Assembly: GCA_009995225.1 (NCBI GenBank)
Contig: JAACPW010000010.1
Coordinates: 62,001-126,000 of the forward strand
DNA from: Sphingomonadales bacterium
GTDB lineage: Bacteria; Pseudomonadota; Alphaproteobacteria; Sphingomonadales; Sphingomonadaceae
Direction of reading: 5' to 3'
Length of the DNA stretch: 64,000 nucleotides
Each line of letters starts with the position of its first letter. The first letter of the stretch is position 1. The notes beneath the pieces are model-generated. The model was not told where the DNA came from and did no database searches. It worked only from the letters and a program-made list of their open reading frames with translations. The translations under genes and the position numbers were made by a program. This document shows positions 27,244 through 35,542 of the stretch, piece by piece.

Positions 27244-27440
27244 CCAAAACCTTCGGGCAGGCCGCCGTCTGCTGGTGCGCGCTCGCCGCACGTCTACTTG
27301 GCTGGCGGCCCGCCGAATTCTGGGGCGCCACGCCAGCCGAGCTGGCGATGGCCCTGGCCGCCCCTGATGATGGCCGCGCCCTTTCCCCCCCTGATCGCGA
27401 GATGATCGCCCGCATGATGGAGCGCGATGCTGATGACTGA
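27240..27440 (+). CDS. Phage tail assembly chaperone (gp10.1 position)
   Basis: 66 aa. FGQAAVCWCALAARLLGWRPAEFWGATPAELAMAL is the Phage_TAC_6/rcc01693 family motif (GWRPxEFWxxTPxEL), found between gp10 and the tape measure in alphaproteobacterial GTAs. It is too small to have enzymatic activity and presumably pairs with gp10. Overlaps both neighbours. Confidence 0.85.
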   Translation: MTKTFGQAAVCWCALAARLLGWRPAEFWGATPAELAMALAAPDDGRALSPPDREMIARMMERDADD

Positions 27441-28008
27441 CAATTTCGATGAACTGGTGATCGATGTGCGCGCCAGCACGGATGGCTTTGCCGCCGATGT
27501 CGAAGCGATGCGCCGCACGCTCGATGGCGGACTGCTCGACGGTTTCAGCCGTGCGGGGAATGTTCTGGAACGCGGGTTGCTGGGAGCCTTGCGACGCGGC
27601 AGTCTCGGTTTCGATGATCTCAAGCGGGTCGCTTTCAGCGCGCTGTCCGAAATCGCGGGCTATGCGGTGCAATCAGGGATCGGCAGCCTTTTTGGCGGGG
27701 CAGGAAGCGGCAATGGCGGTCTCGGAAGCCTGATCGGCAACTCGCTCAGCGCACTGCTTGGCTTGCCGGGCCGGGCCACCGGCGGGCCGGTCGCGCCGGG
27801 GCGCGCCTATCTGGTCGGTGAACGCGGCCCGGAGGTGTTCGTGCCGACCGCCGCCGGAAGGGTCGAGACCGGAATGGCTCCGCCGGGGCGCGATGTGCGC
27901 GTGGCGATCCAGGTCGCTGTACCGCGCGGACAGGCTGCGCCCACCGCAATGCAGCGTTCGTCGCGCCAGATCGCCAGCGCCGTTCGCCGCGCCTTGCAAC
28001 AATCCTGA
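27427..28008 (+). CDS. GTA gp11-like tape measure protein
   Basis: 193 aa (ATG 27427; ATG 27433 is equally possible with the GGAG at 27419). The N-terminus FDELVIDVRASTDGFAADVEAMRRTL begins a helical part, then a Gly/Leu-rich hydrophobic region GGAGSGNGGLGSLIGNSLSALLGLPGRATGGPVAPGRAYLVGERGPEVFVPTAAGRVE. The GERGPEVFVP motif is a standard tape-measure C-terminal feature. The short length (phage tape measures are often 600-1500 aa) predicts a short tail, as in RcGTA. Confidence 0.88.
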   Translation: MLMTDNFDELVIDVRASTDGFAADVEAMRRTLDGGLLDGFSRAGNVLERGLLGALRRGSLGFDDLKRVAFSALSEIAGYAVQSGIGSLFGGAGSGNGGLGSLIGNSLSALLGLPGRATGGPVAPGRAYLVGERGPEVFVPTAAGRVETGMAPPGRDVRVAIQVAVPRGQAAPTAMQRSSRQIASAVRRALQQS

Positions 28009-28024
28009 GCGGAAGGAACACCCG

Positions 28025-30346
28025 ATGGCATTCTGGCTCGCCCGCGAACGCCGCGCGCAGGAAAGCACCTTCATGCAGCGCTTCGACCCGCGCTTCTGGG
28101 CCATCAATTTCCCCCGCCCCGCCATGGCTGCGGTGGTGACGACTGGCCCGGACAGTTTGCGGGTCGATGTCGAGCTGCACCTTGCGGGCGAATTGGTGGG
28201 CCTGATCTGGGAAAGCGCCGACACGCTCGATCACCCTCTGCTCGCCTACCAGACCGACCGCGATTACGCCCACACGTCGCTGCGGTTCCGCTGGCAATCC
28301 GATGGCGTGGTCGCCCTCGATCAACCCAATGGGCCGACCCTGACCATCGAAGGGCGGGACGCCGCGGGCACGCCGCGCACCTGGTATGTCCGGCTCTGGA
28401 ACTATGCGCAGGGCACGCCCACCGATGCGCGCATCATACTGCCCTTTTCGGCGCTGGAGAGCGGCTACGGCCTGCCCGGAGAGCCGATCCATCCGGGCGA
28501 CATCGACCGTATGTTCATTTCGCTGGTTGCGCCCGGACACATCCCCGGCAGCACCACGCCCCTGCCTGCGCGGTTCAACGGTTCCGTCCTCATGTCCGAG
28601 ATTGTCGCTGATGGCGCACGGGCGATGCTGGAATTGGGCGATGTACTGGTCCCCCCGCATGGCGAACGCATGGCGACCGCCTATGACGATGCCTATAACC
28701 AGACCCCTGCGCGGCTGCTGCGCGCCATCACCGGGCTCGGTTACCGAGAGGATATTGTCCACTATGTCGGCATGAGCCATTTCATGCGGCTCGCAAGGCA
28801 GCCCGACGGCAGCCTCAAGGCCGCCCCCGGTGGCGCGCTGTGCGATCCGGCAGAGGTTTGGCACCGCAGCCTCTTCGGTCTGGCGCAGGCAGCGGGGTTC
28901 GAAGTGATCGCCTCGCTTTCCTATGAACTGTTCGACGCTTACTGCCCTGAAAGCTGGAAACAGCGCACGGCCGGCGGGGCGCCCGCGCTGACGGGGTGGG
29001 TTCCCCCGTCGACCCTGCTGTCTCCTGCCAACAGCGAGGCGATGGGCTGGCTGGCCGATATTGCCCGGTCCTTTGTCGCGCTGCTAAAAAACGCCGACCT
29101 CCCCGTCCGTTTCCAGATCGGCGAGCCGTGGTGGTGGGTGACGCCTTCACGCGAGATTTGCCTGTATGATGATGCGGCAAGCGCTGCGTTCGGCGGAGAC
29201 CCGCCCGTCATCGCCAATATCGCCGCGCCGCTGGGTGAAGCGGAAACGGCGCTGCTCGATGCGGCAGGCGCTCTCCTCGCGCAGTCGACCGGCGCGCTCA
29301 CTGCGGCGGTCCGCGCAGCGGCACAAGGCACAGCCGAAGTGCTGCTGCTCGCCTTCACGCCGACGGTCCTCGATCCCGCGACGCCCGAACAGTATCGCGC
29401 CAATCTGCCCGCAGGCTGGGCCGCACCGGCTTTCGACCGGCTCCAGTTGGAAGATTACGACTGGCTCACCGCCGGCGCGGATGCCGCCCGGCGTGCCGCC
29501 TATGCTCTGGTCAATGACCGGCTTGGCTACGCTCTGGCTGATCAGGACTATCTGGCGGGCTTCGTGCTCGATCCTGCCGATGCCGAGCTGTTCTGGGCGC
29601 GCATCGACGGCGGGCTGGACGAAGCGGCCACACGCGGCATCGCGCGCCGGTATGTCTGGGCGCTGCCACAGGTCAACCGCGACGGCTACACCCGCCTCGC
29701 CCCTCCGCCGGAGCAAGCCATGAACCCTTTCGACGACGTGCCCTACCCCTTTGCTTTGGGGCGCAGCGCCTCGGTCGCACCAGAGTTTTCGACCTCGATC
29801 GCTGTCACAGCGTCGGGGCATGAGCGGCGCAATTCGCTGTGGTCAGACGCGCGCCTCCATTTCGATGTCGGGCCGGGCATCCGTTCCGAAAGCGAATTGT
29901 CTGAATTGATCGCCTTCTTCCGCGCTCGCCGCGGGCCGGCGCGCGGCTTCCGGATTATGGACCCCTTCGACAACAGCTCGAACGCAATGACCAGTGCACC
30001 GACCATGCTTGATCAGGTGATCGGCGTCGGTGACGGCGTGCGCGCCGATTTCCAGCTGGTGAAGTCCTATGGCGGCACCGAACCGCAGGTACGCCCGATA
30101 ACCCGCCCCCGCGCCGATACGCTGTTGGTCAGCATCGGCGGAACGGCAAGCACCGCCTGGGCGCTAGGCGAAAAGGGTGTGCTGCGGTTCCTTGCCGCCC
30201 CGCCCGAAGGGGCCGAGGTTCGCGCAGGTTTCCGCTTCGACGTGCCGGTGCGCTTTGCCGAAGACCGCCTCGATGTTGCAGCCGTCAATTTCGCAGCTGG
30301 GGAAGCCCCCTCCGTGCCGCTGATCGAGATCCGGGAGACAACCTGA
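28025..30346 (+). CDS. Fused distal-tail protein: N-terminal TIM-barrel-like module plus C-terminal DUF2460 (gp12)
   Basis: 773 aa from ATG 28025 with GGAAGGAA upstream. Residues 566-773 are a full DUF2460 distal-tail domain (NPFDDVPYPFALGRSASVAPEFSTSI ... RGPARGFRIMDPFD ... DTLLVSIGG), about the size of RcGTA gp12. The first 565 residues are extra: residues 20-200 resemble a carbohydrate-binding-like beta sandwich (RTWYVRLWNYAQG), then a TIM-barrel-like part with VGMSHFMRLAR, FEVIASLSYELFDAYC and FQIGEPWWWV (Glu367). Similar N-terminal modules occur in phage proteins labelled 'non-contractile tail sheath, TIM barrel'; I give that name tentatively. An internal ATG at 29720 could make gp12 alone. 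Confidence 0.85.
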   Translation: MAFWLARERRAQESTFMQRFDPRFWAINFPRPAMAAVVTTGPDSLRVDVELHLAGELVGLIWESADTLDHPLLAYQTDRDYAHTSLRFRWQSDGVVALDQPNGPTLTIEGRDAAGTPRTWYVRLWNYAQGTPTDARIILPFSALESGYGLPGEPIHPGDIDRMFISLVAPGHIPGSTTPLPARFNGSVLMSEIVADGARAMLELGDVLVPPHGERMATAYDDAYNQTPARLLRAITGLGYREDIVHYVGMSHFMRLARQPDGSLKAAPGGALCDPAEVWHRSLFGLAQAAGFEVIASLSYELFDAYCPESWKQRTAGGAPALTGWVPPSTLLSPANSEAMGWLADIARSFVALLKNADLPVRFQIGEPWWWVTPSREICLYDDAASAAFGGDPPVIANIAAPLGEAETALLDAAGALLAQSTGALTAAVRAAAQGTAEVLLLAFTPTVLDPATPEQYRANLPAGWAAPAFDRLQLEDYDWLTAGADAARRAAYALVNDRLGYALADQDYLAGFVLDPADAELFWARIDGGLDEAATRGIARRYVWALPQVNRDGYTRLAPPPEQAMNPFDDVPYPFALGRSASVAPEFSTSIAVTASGHERRNSLWSDARLHFDVGPGIRSESELSELIAFFRARRGPARGFRIMDPFDNSSNAMTSAPTMLDQVIGVGDGVRADFQLVKSYGGTEPQVRPITRPRADTLLVSIGGTASTAWALGEKGVLRFLAAPPEGAEVRAGFRFDVPVRFAEDRLDVAAVNFAAGEAPSVPLIEIRETT
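29710..29722 (+). promoter_or_regulatory. Candidate internal ribosome binding site and start for stand-alone gp12
   Basis: GGAG (29710-29713), six-base spacing, then ATG 29720 in frame with the large gene. Initiation here would make a 208-aa protein beginning MNPFDDVPYPF, the normal size and N-terminus of GTA gp12. Both long and short products from one gene are therefore possible. Confidence 0.45.
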
Positions 30347-31155
30347 TGCGGGTATTCTTCGACCGCGAGCTGGATACTGTCGCGACGTTCTGGCGGATCT
30401 ACCGCCGCGACGGGGCGGCGCTCGCCTTCACCAGCCATGACCGCGACCTCAGCTTCGGCGGCATTCGGCACCTGGCCGCTCCTGGCATGATCCCGGCCGC
30501 GATCCGTCTGACATCCGAGCTCAGCAACGACAGCGCAGAGGTCCAAGGTGCACTCCACCATGATTCCATCCGCGAGGCGGATCTCGCAGCCGGGCTATAC
30601 GATGAAGCTGCTATCGACATCGGCGCAGTCGACTGGGCGAGCCTCGATCACCACACACTTTACACCGGCCAGATCGGACGGATCGAGGATGACAGTACCC
30701 AGTTCGCCGCCGAATTGCGTTCAACCAAAAGCCTGCTCGAACAAGACATGGTACCGCGCACCAGCCCAACGTGTCGGGCCGAATTTTGCGGACGCGGGTG
30801 CGGTCTTTCCGCGGCACGTTTCACCGCCGTTCACACGCTTGCCGCGATCGATCTTGAGGGCAACCGAACCCGGTTCACCGGCCTTGATGGGGAGTCCTAC
30901 CTTGATGGGCGACTGCGCCTCATGGCCGGGCCACAGACGGGCGTTGCCTTCGGAATCGTCGACGCCCAAGGCGACTGGCTTGTGCTTGATCGGCCGCTGG
31001 TCACCGGCACAGCAATCGGCACCCGGGCTGAACTTCGCGCGGGCTGCGACCATACCATCGCGACTTGCTCCAGCCGGTTCGGCAATGCCATCAATTTCCG
31101 GGGCGAGCCGTTCCTTCCGGGCAATGATCTGCTTGCGCGTTACGGCCAGTCATGA
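30346..31155 (+). CDS. GTA gp13-like baseplate hub protein (DUF2163/BR0599)
   Basis: 269 aa. The family pattern is clear: N-terminal DTVATFWRIYRRDGAALAFTSHDRDL, middle YTGQIGRIEDDSTQFAAELRS, then cysteines at 143, 148, 152 (TCRAEFCGRGCG) and 234, 241 (AGCDHTIATCSSRFGNAINFRGEPFLPG). This cysteine set recalls the iron-sulfur cluster in lambda tail-tip gpL; a cluster here is inferred from the pattern. Start ATG shares A with the gp12 stop (TGATG). Confidence 0.88.
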   Translation: MRVFFDRELDTVATFWRIYRRDGAALAFTSHDRDLSFGGIRHLAAPGMIPAAIRLTSELSNDSAEVQGALHHDSIREADLAAGLYDEAAIDIGAVDWASLDHHTLYTGQIGRIEDDSTQFAAELRSTKSLLEQDMVPRTSPTCRAEFCGRGCGLSAARFTAVHTLAAIDLEGNRTRFTGLDGESYLDGRLRLMAGPQTGVAFGIVDAQGDWLVLDRPLVTGTAIGTRAELRAGCDHTIATCSSRFGNAINFRGEPFLPGNDLLARYGQS

Positions 31156-31571
31156 CGGCAACGGGTGAAACGCTCGCCGAGGCTGCGCGGGCGCTGATTG
31201 GTTGCCCATTCCGGCTTCACGGGCGCGATCCTGCCACAGGCCTCGATTGCGTGGGCCTCGTGTCGGCCGTGCTCCAGGCAAACGGCGCACGACCTGCCCC
31301 GCCCAGCGGCTATGCCTTGCGGAATCTCGACATCGCTCAGTGGCTTCCATCAGCGCGGGAATCCGGCTTGGTGCTGTCGATCGGACCGATCCGTGCCGGC
31401 GACGTGCTGCTGATCGCACTCGGACATTACCAGCACCACCTCGCGATTGCCGCCGATCCGCTTTGTGTCGTCCACGCTCATGCTGGCCTCCGGCGGGTCG
31501 TGCTTCAGCCGCGCGATCCCGCATGGCAGATCGATGTCAAGTGGCGGCACGAGACACAGACAGAAGGTTGA
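31152..31571 (+). CDS. GTA gp14-like NlpC/P60 cell-wall peptidase
   Basis: 139 aa. Papain-like NlpC/P60 fold with catalytic Cys33 in TGLDCVGLV and His95/96 in YQHHLAIA; the IGCPFRLHGRDP stretch is the usual N-terminal motif. In RcGTA this enzyme is in the baseplate and cuts recipient peptidoglycan to allow DNA entry. It is followed 4 bases later by the gp15-like gene and overlaps the hub stop (ATGA). Confidence 0.92.
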   Translation: MTATGETLAEAARALIGCPFRLHGRDPATGLDCVGLVSAVLQANGARPAPPSGYALRNLDIAQWLPSARESGLVLSIGPIRAGDVLLIALGHYQHHLAIAADPLCVVHAHAGLRRVVLQPRDPAWQIDVKWRHETQTEG

Positions 31572-31575
31572 TCCC

Positions 31576-33759
31576 ATGGCGACTCTTGTTCTCACGGCGC
31601 TCGGTTCAGCGATCGGCGGACCGATCGGCGGTGCGATTGGCGGGTTAATCGGCCAGCAAATCGATACGCGCATATTCACACCGGGCGGACGGGAAGGCCC
31701 GCGGCTGCGTGAATTGGCGATCAGCACCTCAAGCTATGGCCAGCCGATCCCACGCCAGTTCGGGCGGATGCGGGTACCAGGCACGGTTATCTGGTCGACC
31801 GATCTTGTTGAAAGCAAGCGTAAGGAAAAAGGACGAAAGGGGCAGCCCTCAACCACGGTCTTTTCCTATTCCGCCTCATTCGCAGTGGCGGTGTCAAGCA
31901 CGCCGATCGCCCGGGTCGGTCGGATTTGGGCCGATGGCAACCTCTTGCGCGGGGCACAGGACGATCTCAAGGTCGGCGGCGCTCTGCGTGTGTATCGCGG
32001 GTTCGGGGATGAGCCCGTCGACCCGCTAATCGGCGCAGCCAAAGGCAACAACGCGCCCGCTTTTCGCGACTGTGCCTATGTCGTGTTCGAGGATCTCGAA
32101 CTGGGCGATTACGGCAATCGCATTCCGGCGCTCAGCTTTGAGATCTTTGCGGACGCAGGAGATGAGAGCGTATCGCTCGCGCAAATCGTGCCCGATGCGT
32201 TCCCGGTGGCGAACGCGACGCCGCTTGACCATGCTCGCGGCTTTGCGGATGAGGGCGGCCCGCTGGCGTCGACGCTTGCCGCGATTGAGCAGGTGATCCC
32301 GCTTGTCTGCATGTCGGGAAGAGACGGCCTCTCCATCGCCACCCGAGACAAAGCCGGCGAGTCCACCCTGACTCTTCCGAACGCGCTTGCACTGGAGGAT
32401 CGCGCGCAGGATGATTCGCGAAACAGGCAACGGGCAGGGCTGCCCGCGCGTTCGCCTGCCGCGCTTCGTTATTATGACGAGGACCGCGATTATCAGACAG
32501 GGGTGCAGCGGGCTGCCGGGGCGCGGCAGGCCGGTCGCGAATTGATGGTTGACCTACCCGCCACCATGACCGCCAGCGGTGCGCGGCAACTTGCCAATGA
32601 CAGCGCCAACCGGGCGCGCTGGCAACACGAAACCGTTACCTGGCGGATAGGGGAACTCGACCCACGTCTTACACCGGGCAGCATCGTGCGACTTCCCGGT
32701 GCCCCGGGCAACTGGTTGCTGCGCAGCTGGGAGTGGCTGGATCGCGGCATCGTGCTTGAACTGGAACGTCTGCCACCTGCTGGCAGCACGCCGCGTCAGA
32801 GTGATCCGGGCAAAAACAATGCCCCGGTTGATCTTGTGATCCCGCCGACGCGGCTAGCGTTAACTGAATTGCCGCCCGACGAGAGCGCCAATCTCGTCAA
32901 TCCTCTGATTTTTGCAGCTGCGACGGCAACGAACAGTGGCTGGCGTGGCGCTGCGCTCTTCGCGGTTCAGGGCACCGCGCTTGTTGATCTCGGTTCGACC
33001 GGAACCCAGCGCGCCGTGATGGGAACGCTCGGCGCGCCCTTGGCCCCAGCTTCTGGCCTACTGTTTGAGCCAGCGGCGACGGCAATGATCGATGTGTTTG
33101 CGCAGGATCTTGGTTTCAGTGACACCGATATTTCCGGCATCGCCAACGGATCAAACCGCGTGTTGATCGGGGGCGAGCTTTTGCAGTTTCTGCATGCCGA
33201 GCCTCTGGGAAGCGGACGCTGGCGGCTTACCGGGCTGTTGCGAGCACGCGGCGGGACAGAACCCGAAGCTGCCCGTGGCCACCCTGCTCAAACCCCAGTG
33301 ATCCTTATCGACGACCGCCTGATTGCGCTGGACGCTCAGCTCATTTCGCCGGTTGCAAGCTCCCGCATTGCCGGGATCGGAACTGGCGATGCAGAAACCG
33401 TTATCGCATCGCTTGCCAACCCCGGTCTTTCACGGCGCCCGCCTTGCCCGGTTCACGCGCGGCAACGGTTGGAGGCCGATCAGGCAGTTCGTTATTGTTG
33501 GACCCGGCGCGGACGAGGCCAGTGGCGATGGAGCGATAGCGTTGAGGTCCCGCTTGTCGAAGAGCGCGAAGCCTATCTTGTGGGTTATGGGCCGACAGAA
33601 GCGCCCGTGGTCGCTTGGCAGCGCGAGAGTGCGTGGTTGAGCCTTAGCCTGTCGGAACGCCGGGAACTTGTCGACTCCCATGGCCCAGCCGCACTCTGGG
33701 TCAGGCAGATCGGTACCTTTGATCATTCCGCTCCCTTGTTGCTTGCCGAATTGTCATGA
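31576..33759 (+). CDS. GTA gp15-like host-specificity/tail-fibre base protein, short form
   Basis: 727 aa from ATG 31576. It opens with a glycine-zipper segment (GSAIGGPIGGAIGGLIGQQI), which may insert in membranes. It continues as the phage-tail-3/gpJ-like scaffold: QLRELAISTSSYGQPIPRQFGRMRVPGTVIWSTDL-type start, SYSASFAVAVSSTPIARVGRIWADGNLLRGAQDDLKVGG, YVVFEDLELGDYGNRIPALSFEIFAD, and later WRLTGLLRARGGTEPEAA. RcGTA gp15 ('megatron') is about 1300 aa and contains a GTA_TIM domain; this protein has no TIM-barrel module and no room for one. Here the TIM-like part is attached to gp12 instead. Confidence 0.85.
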   Translation: MATLVLTALGSAIGGPIGGAIGGLIGQQIDTRIFTPGGREGPRLRELAISTSSYGQPIPRQFGRMRVPGTVIWSTDLVESKRKEKGRKGQPSTTVFSYSASFAVAVSSTPIARVGRIWADGNLLRGAQDDLKVGGALRVYRGFGDEPVDPLIGAAKGNNAPAFRDCAYVVFEDLELGDYGNRIPALSFEIFADAGDESVSLAQIVPDAFPVANATPLDHARGFADEGGPLASTLAAIEQVIPLVCMSGRDGLSIATRDKAGESTLTLPNALALEDRAQDDSRNRQRAGLPARSPAALRYYDEDRDYQTGVQRAAGARQAGRELMVDLPATMTASGARQLANDSANRARWQHETVTWRIGELDPRLTPGSIVRLPGAPGNWLLRSWEWLDRGIVLELERLPPAGSTPRQSDPGKNNAPVDLVIPPTRLALTELPPDESANLVNPLIFAAATATNSGWRGAALFAVQGTALVDLGSTGTQRAVMGTLGAPLAPASGLLFEPAATAMIDVFAQDLGFSDTDISGIANGSNRVLIGGELLQFLHAEPLGSGRWRLTGLLRARGGTEPEAARGHPAQTPVILIDDRLIALDAQLISPVASSRIAGIGTGDAETVIASLANPGLSRRPPCPVHARQRLEADQAVRYCWTRRGRGQWRWSDSVEVPLVEEREAYLVGYGPTEAPVVAWQRESAWLSLSLSERRELVDSHGPAALWVRQIGTFDHSAPLLLAELS

Positions 33760-33775
33760 TCGTCTGGAGTATCTC

Positions 33776-34240
33776 ATGCCCAATCCCATCGTTTTTCCAA
33801 GTTCAACTCCTGGCCTTGGCCTGCCACTGCTCATAGCCGGTCAGGCGCAAAAGGAGTTTTTCCTAAATCAGGCCCTGTGCGTCCTAGATGCGTTACATTC
33901 TCACACTGTCATGGCCTCACAGTCCGTCCCACCGGACACCGCACAGGAAGGCGACTGCTTTCGCGTCACGGACCCGGCGCAAGCGGCTTGGGCCAGCCAC
34001 GAAAATGCTCTCGCTCTGCTAGTCGGCGGAACCTGGCATTTCATCGCCCCGTGCGAAGGAATGCAAGTGTTCGATACCTCCGCAGGCCACACGCTTATCT
34101 TTAGAGGCGTGTGGGAGAGCGCCGCGGTTCCTGTAAATCCATCCGGTGGTACAATAATCGACGCTGAAGCGAGATCTGCAATTGCAGCACTGTCGATGTC
34201 GCTACAGGCTATGGGCTGGCTGGCTCCCTCTGCCCCCTAG
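33776..34240 (+). CDS. DUF2793 domain protein closing the GTA cluster
   Basis: 154 aa from ATG 33776 with GGAG 9 bases upstream. SSTPGLGLPLLIAGQAQKEFFLNQALCVLDALHSHTVMASQSVPP and GDCFRVTDPAQAAWASHENALALLVGGTWHFIAPCEGMQVF match DUF2793, a family found as the last gene of sphingomonad/rhodobacter GTA and prophage tail regions. In longer homologues it forms the attachment part of a tail fibre. It probably supplies receptor binding but there is no direct evidence. The transcript probably ends in the 168 bases before ompA. Confidence 0.82.
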   Translation: MPNPIVFPSSTPGLGLPLLIAGQAQKEFFLNQALCVLDALHSHTVMASQSVPPDTAQEGDCFRVTDPAQAAWASHENALALLVGGTWHFIAPCEGMQVFDTSAGHTLIFRGVWESAAVPVNPSGGTIIDAEARSAIAALSMSLQAMGWLAPSAP

Positions 34241-34408
34241 GCAGCCAAACCGGCAGATTAACGCCGATTTTTCGATTGCATTTTTTTCCACAAGCATGCC
34301 AACGCGACATTCTTGCAACACCTAGCGCCTATTGATTGCTTGCTTGACGTAAGGCGAAAAGATAGAGAGCGGCAGTGCCTCAAGTCCAATTCAAAGGGGA
34401 ATTTTAGA

Positions 34409-35542
34409 ATGCGCAAACTCGTCATTGGGATGGCGATGGCTTCGACCGCGCTGACCACACCCGCCATGGCCCGTGAAGGCCAGTGGTATATCCAGGGTGA
34501 TGGCGGTGTGATGATCGTCGAAGACCAGAGCCTCGATGTCAACGGCACCGCTAGCGATGCGGTCGCCAACTACGACACAGGTTACGATTTCGGCGGCATG
34601 GTCGGTTACGATTTCGGGGCTTTCCGTCTCGAAGCCGAAGCCAGCTATCGGGCCGCGGATCTCTCGGACGTGCAGGCCGGTACTGAGGGCCTTGTGCTCA
34701 ACCCGGATGTCGGCGGATTTAACACCTTTACCGGAAATCGTGACGCCATTGGCGAAGTGAACGCACTCAGCTTCATGGTGAATGGCCTGTTTGATTTCGG
34801 GTCCGATGATGGCCTTCAAGCCTTCGCCGGTGGCGGCGTCGGTGTTGCTCGCGTCGACATGGAAGGCATCGTCAACGCAAACGGCCCCGGGATCTGGGAT
34901 GATTCGGACACCGGCTTTGCTTGGCAGTTGCTGGCAGGCGTTCGCGCACCGATCAGCGACTCTTGGGACGTCGGTTTGAAGTATCGCTACTTCAACGTTC
35001 CCGATGTCAGCCTGGTCGATCCGCTTGGACGCACGCTTGACACCAAGATGAGCAGCCATTCGGTGCTTGGCTCTATCACCTACAACTTCGGTGGCGCCGA
35101 ACCGGCTCCGCCGCCTCCTCCGCCCCCGCCGCCGCCGCCGCCGCCTCCGCCGCCTCCTCCGCCCCCGCCGCCGCCGCCGCCTCAGGCAGCATGCAACACG
35201 GGTCCCTATGTCGTATTCTTCGATTTCGACCAGTCGGATATTACGCCGCAGGCCGCGAGCATCCTCAACAGTGCTGTTACGGCCTACGCAAATTGCGGTT
35301 CGGCAAGCGTCATGCTGGCGGGTCACACTGACCGCGCAGGCAGCACAGCCTACAACGTGGGTCTGGCTGAACGTCGCAACGCGTCGGTCAATTCGTACCT
35401 GACCGGTCGTGGCGTCCCCGGTACTCGGATCACCACCGAAGCCTTCGGCGAATCGCAGCCGCGCGTTCCGACTGCCGACGGTGTGCGTGAAGCGCAGAAC
35501 CGCCGCGTCGAAGTAACCTACGGTCCGGGTTCGGGCATGTAA
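34409..35542 (+). CDS. OmpA-family outer membrane protein with 25-proline linker
   Basis: 377 aa from ATG 34409 with AAAGGGGA upstream. A signal peptide ending near TTPAMA-RE leads into an eight-strand OmpA barrel (WYIQGDGGVMI ... YDFGAFRLEAEASYR ... KYRYFNVPD ... SVLGSITYNFGGAE). Then 25 consecutive prolines, followed by a C-terminal OmpA domain that grips peptidoglycan (YVVFFDFDQSDITPQAASIL ... GHTDRAGSTAYNVGLAERRNASV ... NRRVEVTYG). It is a structural cell-envelope anchor. The poly-proline tract should need EF-P for translation. A strong terminator follows. Confidence 0.93.
   Translation: MRKLVIGMAMASTALTTPAMAREGQWYIQGDGGVMIVEDQSLDVNGTASDAVANYDTGYDFGGMVGYDFGAFRLEAEASYRAADLSDVQAGTEGLVLNPDVGGFNTFTGNRDAIGEVNALSFMVNGLFDFGSDDGLQAFAGGGVGVARVDMEGIVNANGPGIWDDSDTGFAWQLLAGVRAPISDSWDVGLKYRYFNVPDVSLVDPLGRTLDTKMSSHSVLGSITYNFGGAEPAPPPPPPPPPPPPPPPPPPPPPPPPPQAACNTGPYVVFFDFDQSDITPQAASILNSAVTAYANCGSASVMLAGHTDRAGSTAYNVGLAERRNASVNSYLTGRGVPGTRITTEAFGESQPRVPTADGVREAQNRRVEVTYGPGSGM
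35108..35182 (+). repeat. Poly-proline coding tract with a 13-codon tandem block
   Basis: 25 CCN codons. The block CCG CCG CCT CCT CCG CCC then a run of CCG is repeated: the first copy spans 13 codons from 35108, the second (from 35147) is one codon shorter. The mix of CCG, CCT and CCC shows duplication rather than single-codon slippage alone. Confidence 0.9.

Follow-up and report, generated by a model that had tools for sequence, protein, structure and literature searches.

A Sphingomonadales GTA-Type Dit Gene Fused Behind a Tail-Sheath-Type Module, with a Predicted Internal Start for a Second Product

Introduction

Does a long Dit gene in a GTA-type cluster encode one tail-tip protein or two, and what is the extra module that it carries? 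The question is raised by one open reading frame in a 64,000-nucleotide stretch of DNA from a Sphingomonadales bacterium (the window; contig JAACPW010000010.1). An earlier note on this DNA, made from the letters and their translations, had described a glycan-type N-terminal module in front of a distal-tail protein of ordinary size, and had suggested that an internal ATG might allow the gene to give both a fused and a stand-alone product. We found no paper on the fusion or on the internal start in the open-access literature. We compared the window with 149 genomes of its family, 196 of its order, and 337 of its class, and set the gene beside known systems in GTAs, phages, and type III secretion.

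Results

The fused gene and its neighborhood

Positions 28025..30346 form one stop-free frame that translates into 773 aa (Table 1). Its C-terminal part matches Pfam DUF2460 over residues 570-770 (237.8 bits, cut-off 30.4) and NCBIfam TIGR02217 (185.2 bits, cut-off 136.65), and residues 569-770 match the RcGTA Dit (Rcc01695, PDB 6tba_6B) at 5.9e-44. The Dit part lies between the tape-measure-like gene and the hub. Judged by these matches, the ORF is an RcGTA-type Dit (gp12) fused behind two N-terminal domains. Rcc01695 is homologous and holds the same position between tape measure and hub, but it has 210 aa and lacks the N-terminal module; the DUF2460 part of the window gene, at 208 aa, is indeed the size of the whole RcGTA protein, as had been claimed, and the frame, ATG 29720, and the GGAG at six-base spacing were all found in the sequence as the earlier note gave them.

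The rest of the cluster in the window comprises portal, protease, capsid, connector, and tail tube genes of RcGTA type; the match of its terminase gene is below the cut-off for that gene.

Table 1 Features of the fused gene, its neighbors, and the hub-fusion loci (positions in the window unless a locus is named)
Feature	Position	Strand	Remarks
Tape-measure-like gene	27427-28008		NCBIfam match far under cut-off; PHROG matches
AAGGA, SD-like site of long product	28013..28017	+	7 nt before ATG 28025; sequence
Long product, sheath-type module + Dit	28025..30346	+	773 aa, 83.6 kDa
NCTSP_N beta-sandwich (PF23844), residues 17-205	28073..28639	+	Pfam; solved relative, N4 gp65 N-terminal part
TIM-barrel_NCTSP (PF23845), residues 210-555	28652..29689	+	Pfam; solved relative, N4 gp64
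Glu301 codon	28925..28927	+	Invariant, 15 divergent rows
Glu367 codon, in IGEPWWW	29123..29125	+	Invariant, 15 divergent rows
Glu476 codon, in QLEDYDW	29450..29452	+	Invariant, 15 divergent rows
GGAG, internal SD-like site	29710..29713	+	Pairing -5.8 kcal/mol
Internal start codon ATG (predicted), residue 566	29720..29722	+	ATG/GTG/TTG in relatives
Predicted nested short product, stand-alone Dit (DUF2460/TIGR02217)	29720..30346	+	208 aa, 22.4 kDa
Hub (gp13)	30346..31155	+	Module carrier in some relatives
NlpC/P60 peptidase (gp14)	31152..31571	+	
Megatron relative (gp15)	31576..33759	+	727 aa; without RcGTA-type TIM-barrel peripheral domain
Hub-fusion loci	L207:4805-7501, L209:4281-7544, L318, L325		One class relative and second copies in three order genomes

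The N-terminal module belongs to a described sheath family

The two N-terminal domains score 298.2 bits (NCTSP_N) and 548 bits (TIM-barrel_NCTSP) against a Pfam cut-off of 27 each; in the PDB, the barrel matches gp64 of phage N4 at 4e-44, and the N-terminal part matches N4 gp65 at 3e-17. By homology, then, the module is no orphan: it is the Pfam non-contractile tail sheath pair, related to N4 gp65 and gp64 (PDB 9lc0, 9yf4), with the sandwich corresponding to gp65 and the barrel to gp64. The motifs IGEPWWW and EDYDW are common to the window barrel and gp64. In N4, the two are separate proteins of a podovirus sheath, whereas in the window both sit on one GTA Dit. N4 gp65 is described in PMC12633501 as a receptor-binding protein.

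The AlphaFold model, built with 63 aligned relatives, has a mean pLDDT of 86, with residues 1-560 mostly above 90 and parts of the Dit poor. The earlier description of a beta-sandwich followed by a TIM barrel that bears Glu367 in IGEPWWW agrees with both Pfam and the model, and structure prediction, which might have returned no such fold, returned the TIM fold. Among the best 50 of 1513 Foldseek matches, N4 gp64 and gp65 are at the top and the Dit of R4C is next; the same 50 include GH31 enzymes, a beta-amylase relative, PgaB, and GH35 (E from about 1e-8 to 1e-6), these glycoside-hydrolase-type matches having TM values by query length of 0.2-0.3. On the model, the barrel fold is a glycoside-hydrolase-like TIM barrel. 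The part of the earlier reading that concerned this likeness stands, although it had missed the membership of the module in the described sheath family of N4 gp64/gp65. The likeness lies at the level of the fold alone, so that no reaction can be named.

Twenty-nine barrel positions are identical across 15 divergent rows chosen by hand (six Dit fusions, three hub fusions, three Lokivirus-like phages, phi92, an rV5-type phage, and a schitovirus), among them Glu301, Gln364, Gly366, Glu367, Pro368, Trp369-371, Asp382, Glu476, and Gln549. Since Glu367 is invariant across these rows, its motif is not one of chance. When sequence positions are set against strand ranges, Glu301, Glu367, and Glu476 fall at or beside model strands 293-299, 361-366, and 472-476.

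Whether the barrel is an enzyme at all is nearly an even question, tilted slightly toward activity of some kind. No catalytic family was matched by sequence among the Pfam and NCBIfam profiles, and the beta-amylase relative among the fold matches is described as noncatalytic, both of which would suit a barrel that is purely structural or a lectin; however, the invariance of the three glutamates and of IGEPWWW in GTA-type clusters and several kinds of phage suggests a functional pocket. With such a pocket, it is plausible that the predicted module binds or cuts polysaccharide of the recipient or the envelope.

PHROG 6040, a 923-position profile with no named function, covers residues 8-764 of the window protein; a similar architecture has thus already been catalogued, without a function. 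In phage records, just one of 422 hits covers 80% of the protein. We rejected the PHROG label "glycoside hydrolase" as a name for the Dit, because phage genes bear it where nothing but the Dit part is matched, so that the label is no evidence of a hydrolase in the Dit. Such genes are those of Caulobacter, Paracoccus, and Roseobacter phages, in which the label is perhaps carry-over from fused proteins. The R4C Dit has been linked to glycoside hydrolase families (PMC10276861), and fused records like the window gene may be the source of its label.

Distribution of the fusion and its carriers

The sheath barrel was found in 97 of the 149 family genomes and DUF2460 in 102. Barrel and Dit share one frame in 89 of the 97 barrel-bearing genomes (the window counted); the other eight are two fetched loci in which they are split (L005, L024) and six split-frame genomes outside the fetched loci. 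One of the 89, L147, is without the beta-sandwich. The order sample has the barrel in 99 of 196 genomes, 29 of these outside the window's family, and the class sample in 5 of 337, 4 of these from the window's family. Frame breaks in barrel or Dit, from decay or assembly error, were seen in G007, G017, G042, G044, G093, G132, G140, and G148; a comparison of breaks in the module with breaks in the Dit as a natural test was set aside, these being too few and the genomes being drafts.

In Sphingomonas parapaucimobilis (L356), a named and annotated case, the annotation gives the gene as a single DUF2460 protein, and the junction likewise has an SD-like stretch and an ATG. The GTA-type cluster of this species is on a 395 kb plasmid record, near an integrase gene. 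Downstream of the megatron relative, the window has a DUF2793 gene (33668-34240) and a gene for an OmpA-family barrel protein (34313-35542), and the same pair is present in L356.

The same NCTSP_N and barrel are fused to the hub in G305 and, as second copies, in G113, G491, and G502, so that the module is shared with the Dit fusions but the carrier differs. The Dit is in a separate frame in the two hub-fusion loci long enough to show it. None of the four has a start codon within the 20 codons that precede the hub motif; in three of them, an ATG stands 24 codons ahead of that motif, at the barrel end, with pairing of -5.9 to -6.0. Because this pairing resembles that at the window's site, we rejected these loci as a clean contrast to the Dit fusions.

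The megatron relative lacks the RcGTA TIM barrel

RcGTA also has a TIM barrel at the tail tip, but it is on the megatron (GTA_TIM, PF13547, residues 445-739 of 6tba_8A) and has no detectable sequence homology to the sheath barrel. In the window, the megatron relative aligns with the RcGTA megatron over its beginning and, in a weak stretch that is not significant alone, over its end; about 560 residues between are absent. It scores 341.5 bits against NCBIfam NF048004 and does not reach the cut-off of 800, which fits the missing TIM domain. GTA_TIM was over the cut-off in 0 of the 149 family genomes, of which only G028 has a match below it, and was found in 0 of the 80 named loci; the profile recovered the domain in 30 of 30 positive loci, 26 of which had built it. 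A megatron frame of 716-738 aa was recognized in 58 of the 80 named loci and none in the other 22. In the class sample of 337, 34 genomes have GTA_TIM, 5 have the sheath barrel, and 0 have both.

We dropped the idea that the same domain had moved from megatron to Dit in favor of replacement, given that hhalign, on shallow profiles, put homology between sheath barrel and GTA_TIM at 0.8%. The megatron is neither among the four sequence matches of the Dit fusion nor among the best 50 of its 1513 fold matches. On present comparisons, the sheath barrel probably replaced the megatron TIM barrel, once. The fused genes derive almost entirely from a single order, so the exchange of TIM barrels could have happened just once, and the failure of the two domains to co-occur does not count as independent evidence.

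A start codon is kept at the junction

In the window, the GGAG at 29710-29713 is separated from ATG 29720 by a six-base spacer (29714-29719). The column of this ATG holds 48 ATG, 37 GTG, 3 TTG, and 1 GCG in the family sample (n = 89), that is, a start codon in 88 of the 89 fused frames; the named set, which partly overlaps the family sample, holds 60 ATG, 12 GTG, 7 TTG, and 1 AAG at the same column (n = 80). Every Val at the column is GTG and every Leu is TTG in both sets, whereas elsewhere in the fused genes of the family sample GTG accounts for 52% of Val codons and TTG for 11% of Leu codons. Ranked by start codons, the internal-start column shares first place among 770 columns with the fixed Met250; it is the sole column with more than 90% start codons that has three kinds of them. 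In the 37 rows with GTG at the internal start, the highest GTG share at any of 14 conserved Val columns is 84% (median 58%).

A quick tree from which the linker was left out gives 20 codon changes at the column that stay within the start set and 1 that leaves it, a pattern with a probability of 1.4e-12 to 5e-11 under single-base change; the figure is rough, the value of 1.4e-12 assuming that two of nine single-base changes are allowed and parsimony counts being lower bounds. In the GCG row that left the set (L205), a GTG lies five codons upstream, and its pairing is -10.8; the AAG row of the named set (L050) has no start codon at the column and no well-paired substitute nearby. Among 32 further loci, 30 are Dit fusions, and the start codon is present in all 30, in one of them displaced by a codon; five other families of the order supply 26 of the 30, and the window's family the other 4. 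Comparison among relatives thus shows selection on the predicted internal start at the nucleotide level.

Shine-Dalgarno pairing and RNA structure at the internal start

The SD energy at the internal start in the family sample is -8.47, compared with -6.33 for synonymous recodings, and the natural pairing beats the recoding mean in 78 of 89 genes; the energy at 1118 other in-frame ATGs is -2.90. Pairing is -6 or lower in 67 of the 89, and an SD core is present in 85. When both starts are compared (n = 86), the internal one has the stronger mean SD (-8.4 vs. -7.2) and is at least as strong as the main start in 56 genes. The internal SD of the window itself is the 17th weakest of the 89.

The 50 bases around the internal start are weakly structured (-9.2 vs. 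-16.4 elsewhere in the gene; weaker in 89 of 89), and their structure is weaker than the synonymous-recoding mean in 73 of 89; the share at 356 control places was 46%, with no excess. The average share of synonymous recodings that match the natural sequence is 36% for strength of pairing and 29% for weakness of folding, so that the choice of amino acids at this place accounts for a good part of both signals. Codon column, SD pairing, RNA structure, and further loci all lend comparative support to the idea of two starts that the earlier note had raised.

Discussion

Our best explanation of the locus as a whole, and one we consider likely, is that one frame gives two tail-tip proteins, a long and a short Dit. 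Initiation at 28025 would yield a Dit subunit with a beta-sandwich and a glycoside-hydrolase-like TIM barrel, and initiation at 29720 a plain Dit subunit as known from RcGTA. We infer that both proteins would join the Dit ring; with both forms in the ring, the hexamer would have less than a full set of six barrels, perhaps three of them, on every other subunit and facing the three-fold baseplate. During the particle's approach to a recipient, the barrel may bind or cut envelope polysaccharide and so stand in for the TIM barrel borne by the RcGTA megatron. Long and short products from one gene are also described for SpaO and Spa33 of type III secretion (PMC13059759, PMC6925163), although protein and machine are unrelated to those considered here.

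The RcGTA Dit is described as a hexamer and its hub and megatron as trimers, with odd Dit subunits touching the hub and even ones the megatron (PMC7296036). A mixed ring made by nested translation could bring three barrels into register with such a three-fold baseplate and restore the three of RcGTA, a proposal that we offer as attractive in outline but rather unlikely, and slightly more so now that the hub fusions give no clean contrast. We would argue, too, that it is on a hexameric carrier that a short product should bring the greatest benefit. It is possible, if on balance doubtful, that the short protein is made and does not mix into the ring, being extra Dit only or leaving the long form as a sheath or collar elsewhere, as in N4; the module is homologous to N4 gp64:gp65, which PMC12633501 describes as a six-fold sheath around the tail tube, but the covalent tie to the Dit makes the ring the simplest location for the long form.

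That the SD and ATG are the idle leftovers of a once separate Dit gene is very improbable: the internal Met does lie near the point where the stand-alone RcGTA Dit begins, yet while the linker has diverged, the start codon, SD, and weak structure have been kept across six families of the order, with roughly 20 codon swaps inside the start set. We give just as little credence to a pause site, at which an SD-like motif would slow the ribosome so that the barrel folds before the Dit, with no initiation; the motif is SD-rich and stands at a domain boundary, but pausing needs no start codon, and the restriction to ATG/GTG/TTG together with weak local structure points to initiation.

With two products from one frame as the preferred reading, the comparisons offer evidence for a second product from a widely kept GTA gene. 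They also show a tail-tip module that rides different carriers, Dit or hub here and separate proteins in N4, while RcGTA has an unrelated barrel on the megatron instead. A mixed ring, if true, would be a genetic solution to a symmetry mismatch.

Two observations concern related records. The 80 best module-bearing IMG/VR "viral contigs" (L234-L313), 4-17 kb in length, may be pieces of sphingomonad GTA clusters; the module of L234 is 100% identical to that of the window. At L208 (G001), where the Dit stands alone, the tape measure is of lambda type with 838 aa and the hub has 536 aa, so that the locus looks prophage-like rather than GTA-like.
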